A DNA stretch of 38,344 bases, from positions 1-38,344 of the forward strand of contig JAAXVR010000017.1 of assembly GCA_013335405.1 (NCBI GenBank). The letters run 5' to 3'. The translations under genes and the position numbers were made by a program. Position 1 is the first letter of the stretch. Each line of letters begins with the position of its first letter. This stretch comes from Chlorobiaceae bacterium. Its GTDB lineage: Bacteria > Bacteroidota > Chlorobiia > Chlorobiales > Chlorobiaceae. The notes below the pieces were generated by a model. The model was not told where the DNA came from and searched no databases. It saw only the letters and a list, made by a program, of their open reading frames with translations. Positions 10,218 through 12,462 of the stretch are shown piece by piece.

Positions 10218-11471
10218 GTGTTCGATACCATCCCTTTTCAATATACAGACGACACGCTCGCGTGCGAGGACGTGCGGCTCGACGAGCTTGCCGCGACATA
10301 CGGGACACCGCTTTTCGTCACCTCTTCAAGAAGCCTCGTCGAAAGCTACACCGCTTTCGAGCTGGCTTTTGCCGGCCTGCCCCATTTCACCTGCTACTCG
10401 GTGAAAGCCAATTTCAACCTGAACGTGATCAGGATTCTCGGCGAACTCGGCTGCGGTTGTGACGTCAATTCAGGGGGCGAGCTCTTCCGTGCACTGAAGG
10501 CCGGCATCAAACCTGAAAAAATCGTGTTTGCCGGCGTCGGCAAGAAACCCGAGGAAATCGCTTCTGCCCTCGAGGCCGGTGTGCTCCTCATGAAAGTCGA
10601 GTCGGTTTCCGAGCTGCACGCGATCGATCGTATTGCAGGGGAGCTTGGAATGGTTGCTCCGGTCGCGGTCAGGATCAATCCTAATGTTACCGCCGAAACG
10701 CATCCCTACATTACTACCGGTGACAGCAAGGAAAAGTTCGGAATCGATGAAGCCGAGCTCGAAGAGGTTTTCGGGCTGCTCGGCAAACTGAAGAATGTTA
10801 CGCTCAAGGGCCTCGACATGCATATCGGTTCACAGATTTTCGATCCGGATTTTTACGTGGAGGCATCCGTGAAGCTGCTCGATATCTTCAACTCGGCGAA
10901 AGAACTCGGATTTTGTGTTGATTATCTCGATATCGGTGGAGGGTTTCCGGTAACCTACGATCCGTCGAAACCGGCGACGCCGATCGGGCAATTCGCCGAA
11001 AAGCTGATTCCGATACTCGCGCCAACGGGCGCGAAAATCATTTTCGAGCCGGGCCGCTACCTCGTGGCGAACGCATCGGTTCTTTTGACCAGGATTCTGT
11101 ACAGGAAGCGCAACCATACCGGCAAGGAGTTTTTCGTGGTCGATGCGGCCATGACCGAGCTGATCCGGCCGGCGCTCTACCATTCGCACCATGAGATCCT
11201 TTCGGTTGTCCGCCATGACAGCACGATCAAAGCCGACGTGGTCGGTCCCGTCTGCGAATCGAGCGACTTTTTCGCCCGCCACCGGGAGATCGACGCGGCC
11301 GGGGAGGGGGAACTTCTTGCCGTTCTTTCCGCAGGAGCCTACGGTGCGGTCATGAGCAGCAACTACAACGGGAGGCTGAGGCCTGCCGAGGTGCTTGTCA
11401 GCGGCAGCGAAGCGAAGCTGGTGCGCAAGCGCGAAACCCTCGAGCAGCTCATCCAGAACGAGGTGTTCTGA
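10218..11471 (+). CDS. lysA: Diaminopimelate decarboxylase
   Basis: This 417-residue enzyme removes the D-centre carboxylate of meso-diaminopimelate to give L-lysine, the last step of the pathway. It is a fold-type III pyridoxal-phosphate enzyme. The Schiff-base Lys63 is in CYSVKANFN; HIGSQI (about residues 200-205), the glycine-rich GGGFP (about 239-243) and EPGRYLV (about 276-282) bind cofactor and substrate. GPVCESSDFF carries the active-site Cys contributed across the dimer, and YGAVMSSNYNGRLRP is the conserved C-terminal signature. Length is normal. The start is GTG with no clear ribosome site. It is a single-gene unit followed by convergent transcription. Confidence 0.96.
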   Translation: MFDTIPFQYTDDTLACEDVRLDELAATYGTPLFVTSSRSLVESYTAFELAFAGLPHFTCYSVKANFNLNVIRILGELGCGCDVNSGGELFRALKAGIKPEKIVFAGVGKKPEEIASALEAGVLLMKVESVSELHAIDRIAGELGMVAPVAVRINPNVTAETHPYITTGDSKEKFGIDEAELEEVFGLLGKLKNVTLKGLDMHIGSQIFDPDFYVEASVKLLDIFNSAKELGFCVDYLDIGGGFPVTYDPSKPATPIGQFAEKLIPILAPTGAKIIFEPGRYLVANASVLLTRILYRKRNHTGKEFFVVDAAMTELIRPALYHSHHEILSVVRHDSTIKADVVGPVCESSDFFARHREIDAAGEGELLAVLSAGAYGAVMSSNYNGRLRPAEVLVSGSEAKLVRKRETLEQLIQNEVF

Positions 11472-11699: not shown

Positions 11700-12080
11700 T
11701 TACCTTCCGAGTGCATTAACTGTTCCTTTCGTATCCCCATCAGAACCGGCCTGGCTGAAAATATACAGGGTAAGGGTTACTGTTGAGCCGCGGAAGGCAG
11801 TTGTTCCAGCTGCAGGAGATTGACTGGCGATAATTGCATTCTTGTTGGGGTCGGGTGTTGGGATTCCCTGGGGTGCATATGCCCATTTCAGGCCTGCATT
11901 CCCTATCGCTGTTCTGCCTCTGCCTCCAAGCATTCCGACAACGTTGGGCACCGCTACATTGAAAGAATTGACGGCTCCTTTCGTATCATCGTCTGAGGGT
12001 ATTACTGCGCTTTCAGCCTTCATTGCGAATGCGGAAGAAAGCACTGTTGCAGTAATGCCGATAAAAAGGAATTTTTTCAT
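11700..12080 (-). CDS. Small secreted protein with a single PASTA domain
   Basis: From the ATG at 12080 the product is 126 residues. It has a clear signal peptide (MKKFLFIGITATVLSSAFA) and then one PASTA-like domain: VPNVVGMLGGRGRTAIGNAG, ending in SQSPAAGTTAFRGSTVTLTL. PASTA domains usually occur in tandem on penicillin-binding proteins and Ser/Thr kinases, where they sense muropeptides; here there is no other domain. The motif DTKGAVN precedes the domain and DTKGTVN follows it, just before the stop. The frame extends to 12119, but the extra residues sit in front of the signal peptide. The gene lies alone, converging on lysA. Function is unknown; a periplasmic cell-wall-associated role is an inference. 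Confidence 0.75.
   Translation of the reverse strand: MKKFLFIGITATVLSSAFAMKAESAVIPSDDDTKGAVNSFNVAVPNVVGMLGGRGRTAIGNAGLKWAYAPQGIPTPDPNKNAIIASQSPAAGTTAFRGSTVTLTLYIFSQAGSDGDTKGTVNALGR
11724..11987 (-). repeat. 12-bp direct repeat flanking the PASTA domain
   Basis: TCCTTTCGTATC occurs at 11724-11735 and again at 11976-11987, 252 bases apart (exactly 84 codons). On the coding strand both encode the DTKG peptide in the same frame. The repeats bracket the PASTA domain. Confidence 0.8.
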
Positions 12081-12303: not shown

Positions 12304-12462
12304 ATGCGCCATGCAATCATTTCCGAAAACCCTGTTTCTGCTCCACGTCCGCTCCCGGTCCTGTTCATCCATGGCATGTGGTTTGCGGCATGGTGCTTGA
12401 GTCCGCATGGCAGAAGGTGGCGGACAGGATCATCGAAGGTTTGCGGAGTCCGGGGTTTATGA
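12304..12462 (+). pseudogene. N-terminal remnant of an alpha/beta hydrolase
   Basis: The frame from ATG 12304 encodes 52 residues ending at TGA 12460-12462. It includes PVLFIHGMWFAAWC, the beta3-strand and oxyanion-hole HG segment of an alpha/beta hydrolase. After that the sequence loses family character (CLSPHGRRWRT) and stops. No nucleophile-elbow Ser or catalytic His follows in any frame I read. A good ribosome site (AAGGAGAAG) lies about 8 nt before the ATG, which suggests that an intact gene once began here. It is probably the stump left by a deletion or frameshift; expression of the 52-residue peptide is possible but has no evident function. Confidence 0.6.

Follow-up and report, generated by a model that had tools for sequence, protein, structure and literature searches.

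A small, probably exported protein of Chlorobiaceae with a single PASTA domain between two conserved peptide tags

The PASTA domain, which folds as one helix and a three-stranded sheet, is carried by the kinases PknB, PrkC and StkP and by PBP2x, PBP1 and PonA2. Binding of muropeptides or beta-lactams is known for PknB, binding of DAP muropeptides by PASTA is reported for the same protein, which has an array of four units, and PonA2 of M. tuberculosis is described with a single PASTA domain, as in the protein presented here (PMC3145798). A survey published in 2005 has no Ser/Thr kinase entry for Chlorobium tepidum (PMC1262709), and no title or abstract opening that we found dealt with a free protein with a single PASTA domain in green sulfur bacteria. 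The gene that we describe, henceforth gene A, has the same domain as these kinases and penicillin-binding proteins by sequence and by predicted fold. Unlike them, it has no kinase or transpeptidase attached: the domain is free, probably exported, and bears a tag at both ends. Gene A is in this sense ordinary in its domain and unusual in its layout.

The window, i.e. the whole stretch of DNA that was analysed, comprises 38,344 nucleotides from a Chlorobiaceae bacterium whose assembly (G000 in our set of 86 Chlorobiaceae genomes) amounts to 2.47 Mb in 62 contigs. According to the list of open reading frames and their translations, gene A lies on the reverse strand (11700..12080) and encodes 126 amino acids plus a stop codon. 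In the direction of translation, and with all features on the reverse strand, the product starts with a Sec-type signal peptide, read by eye, at about residues 1–25 (12006..12080; cleavage after AFA or ESA), followed by the tag DTKGAVN (residues 32–38, 11967..11987), one PASTA domain (residues 42–105, 11766..11957, from Pfam and the predicted fold), a second tag, DTKGTVN (residues 116–122, 11715..11735), and the stop. Pfam assigned the domain to PF03793 (E 6.3e-7, 29.7 bits versus a cut-off of 23.2). It is the only Pfam domain in the product and occupies one stretch, so there is no tandem array. No kinase or penicillin-binding domain was detected in the chain by Pfam, and the NCBIfam kinase model reached 17.9 bits against a cut-off of 450. 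The earlier note, made from the letters of the window, had described a free-standing protein consisting of a signal peptide and one PASTA domain, flanked by DTKG-A/T-VN peptides and a 12-bp repeat exactly 84 codons apart, and both parts of that description held up. The product is probably a small exported, periplasmic protein. A sigma-70-like promoter was not found for the gene, which says little.

A first fold model of the full-length product, built with five sequences, was poor (pLDDT 42.9). The mature protein modelled with 26 sequences reached a mean pLDDT of 73.6, with 72–90 in ten-residue blocks over the PASTA domain and 47–57 at the ends; the tags are at low confidence. The model contains a helix and strands in PASTA order, and a Foldseek search against the PDB (best 50 of 75 matches) placed PASTA-bearing chains (PknB, PrkC, StkP, PBP1, PBP2x, PonA2) at ranks 1–28, with a best E-value of 1.6e-3 and none below 0.001. 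Among PDB entries the alignment profile also matches PonA2 and PASTA kinases, a result that is not independent, since the alignment contains PASTA domains of other bacteria. The predicted fold of the gene A domain is that of PASTA, and not the different structure that would have spoken against the original reading.

Gene A is convergent with a gene for a PLP-dependent decarboxylase of the Orn/DAP/Arg type (10218..11471, forward strand), which we take to be lysA and which served to anchor the locus in relatives. This neighbour gives no functional support beyond the DAP-related type of the enzyme. Further along, at 12304-12458 on the forward strand, the window holds the remnant of an alpha/beta hydrolase gene that occupies the same place in relatives. 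Compared with the protein of G043, from whose Pfam match the hydrolase identity is taken, residues 1–35 are recognizable (E 7.6e-10), residues 239–262 weakly so (E 0.06), and the middle is missing. In G076, where no gene A is present between decarboxylase and hydrolase, two successive hydrolase frames lie 3' of the decarboxylase (L086, G076:C143, 542-2068, forward strand), the first of which looks internally shortened relative to the second.

PASTA matches to the Pfam profile were present in all 86 genomes, and by a hand count among the matches listed 66 of them have exactly four. Most of the frames listed are of about 250–280 or about 650–700 amino acids, and a single-PASTA frame of the latter size is probably a penicillin-binding protein. 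The core membrane protein of G000 (about 250 amino acids) has three PASTA domains by Pfam and no DxKG tag. Gene A and its paralogue B (see below) belong to the same domain family and are found in the same genomes as these core proteins, to which they are extra: of the matches listed, G000 has six, G076 has five, G043 has seven (with one left over after the core, A and B) and G036 and G040 have four each.

Intact copies of gene A were recovered from only two of the 86 genomes, some of which are incomplete: G000 and G043. The G043 product is 71% identical, is encoded beside the same decarboxylase gene, and has both tags at the same 84-codon spacing. Paralogue B, 36–38% identical to A, was found in three of the 86 (G000, G043 and G076; the same incompleteness applies), at a common locus that adjoins a formyltransferase gene, presumably purN, and a radical-SAM gene, presumably queE. 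The B proteins carry one PASTA domain flanked by the tags TDEKGPVN and DTDTKG(P/R)VT, which are spaced 78 codons apart, and together with G043 A all three pass PF03793 (26.9–31.7 bits). All five proteins of the two paralogues keep D, K, G and V in each tag without exception, and the flanking repeat, whose absence from homologues would have weakened the original proposal, is carried by the intact ones. Rough dN/dS values for the mature part, rough in that dS is saturated (about 1.5–2), are 0.076 for A and 0.055–0.062 for B (G000 versus the other two), with 0.169 for the close B pair and 0.395 for the start of A versus G036. B is absent between the same neighbours in G036 and G040, where frames of less than 45 amino acids were not displayed but the tag pattern was unmatched on the contigs concerned. 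From this distribution A and B appear as a rare, lineage-restricted and dispensable pair. Because B repeats the motif–PASTA–motif layout of A, one PASTA unit between two D(T/E)KGxV(N/T) tags looks ancestral.

A decarboxylase match was obtained in 81 genomes, and downstream DNA was examined in 35 of them plus the window. Among these 36 loci, a tag behind a signal peptide occurs only in the window, G043, G036 and a broken copy in G040. The G036 locus encodes an intact frame of 42 amino acids made up of a signal peptide, SDSDTKGTVNSFGR and the stop, with one DTKGTVN. Its left arm aligns, with a score of 114, to the start of the window gene, the N-terminal tag and the upstream DNA. For the part that begins with the tag, the C-terminal flank and 3' DNA of the window give a score of 51, and the N-terminal flank and PASTA domain one of 34, owed to the tag alone. 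Past the tag, the match to the C-terminal end and 3' DNA of the window (score 27) was equalled in 0 of 5000 shuffles and that to the PASTA side in 925 of 5000, which is not significant. The junction is weaker when G036 is compared with G043 (past the tag the right side is equalled in 126 of 5000 shuffles, and the score of the left arm is 21). No convincing remnant of PASTA was found in the G036 locus, the best tblastn match having an E-value of 0.20 at 32% identity. Since the left side of G036 matches the upstream flank and the right side the downstream flank, the window gene and G036 differ by exactly one PASTA unit, and both junctions fall within the repeat. The suggestion that copy number can change at these repeats was thus right in one respect, as a difference between species (G036 lacks the unit that G000 and G043 have), and found no support as regards collapse from a longer array. 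The G040 copy of the gene carries a frameshift. It resembles G036 as far as the tag and then again from about 200 bp further on, on another contig, and may or may not share the unit difference.

We give a rough probability of two in three to the reading that gene A encodes a dispensable single-PASTA protein, probably periplasmic and restricted to a lineage, whose terminal tags are conserved, the repeat of the tags acting as a joint for loss of the unit. In its favour stand the layout shared with B, the conservation of the tags and the unit difference itself. The most likely ligands of the PASTA domain would be muropeptides or the stem peptides of peptidoglycan; the flexible tags could hold a partner or help to keep the protein at the wall. 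Selection on the protein would maintain the tags, with the direct DNA repeat as a side effect, and recombination or slippage between the repeat copies would then remove the PASTA unit in frame, the simplest account of the 42-amino-acid tag-only gene of G036. On grounds of parsimony, given that A and B have the same tag–PASTA–tag layout, the G036 state would most simply have arisen by loss. With this locus nature offers a comparison between sister species, one side having the PASTA unit and the other lacking it, for a PASTA domain free of kinase or penicillin-binding protein; it would let one ask what a lone PASTA domain does in a Gram-negative phototroph. A more modest lesson is that a conserved repeated peptide can mimic a recombination scar and may also act as a recombination joint.

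Change in the opposite direction, with an ancestral short gene of signal peptide and tag, as in G036, receiving a PASTA unit and a copy of the tag, would agree with the intact reading frame of the short form. It would agree too with the DNA tree of the locus, which is unrooted and has five rows, four intended outgroups having given no sequence by motif search: in this tree G036 and G040 group together, apart from G000, G043 and G076, and G043 falls with G076. We nevertheless regard a gain as unlikely, because the identical layout of B would require it either to predate the split of A and B and then to be undone, or to happen twice, and because the G040 copy of the gene is decaying, as expected after loss of function.

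The preferred reading, with the tags kept by selection on the protein, also bears on what the repeats themselves record. The earlier note took them for scars of a gene that had contained several DTKG–PASTA units and been shortened by recombination. Exact direct repeats in the gene A frame reach at most 12 bp, and the longest lies within a 30-bp repeat whose copies are 77% identical and 252 bp apart; one 30-bp copy adjoins the stop codon (11715..11744, with the exact 12 bp at 11724-11735) and the other lies ahead of the PASTA domain (11967..11996, with the exact 12 bp at 11976-11987). The 12-bp repeat alone means little, because 82 of 1861 other 381-bp segments of the same sequence contain one. 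The best 30-bp self-match of gene A was equalled in one of 300 codon shuffles. When both peptides were kept and their codons redrawn synonymously from local usage (20,000 draws), the 30-bp match was equalled or bettered in 13% of draws, and the identical 12 bp appeared in 2.8%. The two copies in the window gene use the same codon at five of the six residues that they share, and the corresponding counts are 2/8 in G043 A and 1/7, 4/8 and 5/8 in B of G000, G043 and G076. Judged by the two redraw frequencies and the five shared codons, the DNA repeat appears to follow mostly from the repeated peptide, and the small excess leaves room for some shared DNA history. The 12-bp identity and the codons likewise leave room for a recent exchange between the two copies, which may have taken place. 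As a whole, the flanking repeats appear to be conserved protein sequence rather than the remains of a longer protein.

A collapsed array could draw on the exact spacing together with the 30-bp repeat, on the codon agreement and the rarity of the 12-bp identity among redraws, and on the G036 difference, by which the repeats are seen to be able to serve as junctions. Multi-PASTA exported or membrane proteins, moreover, do occur in the family. Exported-type proteins with a C-terminal membrane segment (segments read by eye) have three PASTA domains in G002, G003 and G016 and at least two in G027, and a partial one is present in G015. They resemble A and B in being exported-type and non-enzymatic, and some are weakly similar to them in sequence. 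They differ in having two or more units, a membrane segment and no DTKG tags: DxKGxV was absent from the extra PASTA proteins of G002, G003, G015, G016 and G027, those of G001, G011, G013, G034, G038 and G063 being left out. Relatives with two or more DTKG–PASTA units, which the earlier note had expected, were found in none of the 86 genomes by protein search, by the tag DNA pattern or among the Pfam profile matches listed. Added to this, A and B have one unit each, the 30-bp similarity recurs in 13% of redraws and codon agreement is lower in the other proteins, all of which makes descent from a multi-unit gene quite improbable.

Outside A and B, the overall frequency of the tag pattern is close to chance. 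As DNA it gave 50 listed matches, in 34 of the 86 genomes, against about 40 for a reversed control (hand count). Nine of the 50 correspond to A, B, G036 and G081, and a wider tag family was rejected, as the other 41 are at background. Among the matches read, only one further small exported protein has a tag beside the signal peptide, that of G081 (L123/L152, G081:C253, forward strand), in which DTKGRVVLP and DAKGPVN come just after the signal peptide. This protein has no Pfam match, and the tags are missing from its relatives in G036 and G040. The remaining matches read included a lipoprotein-like frame of 208 amino acids (L055, G054:C17) with DDKGYVN about 26 residues past the cysteine, whose DNA pattern is also present in G069, an exported-looking repeat protein with DNKGAVT inside the chain (L059), a long surface-type frame (L053), and otherwise MraZ-like proteins, long unrelated proteins or short frames. 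A likeness between the B tag DTKGRVTLP (L002) and the DxKGRVxLP strand of MraZ-type proteins, with a sub-threshold Pfam score (11.7 versus 23 bits), is probably a coincidence.

One could conceive of D(T/E/A)KGxV as a mobile tag of small exported proteins that docks to a common partner and provides a joint for domain loss or exchange, in which case the unrelated G081 protein and the tag-only peptide of G036 would both be products of the tag process. The argument for this is the single case of G081, and with the tag pattern near chance it seems highly doubtful. A mobile or viral origin of gene A was rejected as well: no plasmid relative appeared at E 0.01, and none was present among 40 viral-contig pattern matches. 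That gene A should be a fast-turnover small gene without function, its tags a chance repeat, accords with its patchy presence, the abundance of 12-bp repeats and the near-chance frequency of the tag pattern across genomes, but is scarcely credible in view of the low dN/dS, the invariant D, K, G and V of both tags and a 30-bp self-match that codon shuffles so seldom equal.

Among the multi-PASTA proteins, that of G015 (L239/L028, G015:C66) has successive units that by eye are near-identical, and as a candidate for copy-number change it may surpass the window gene.
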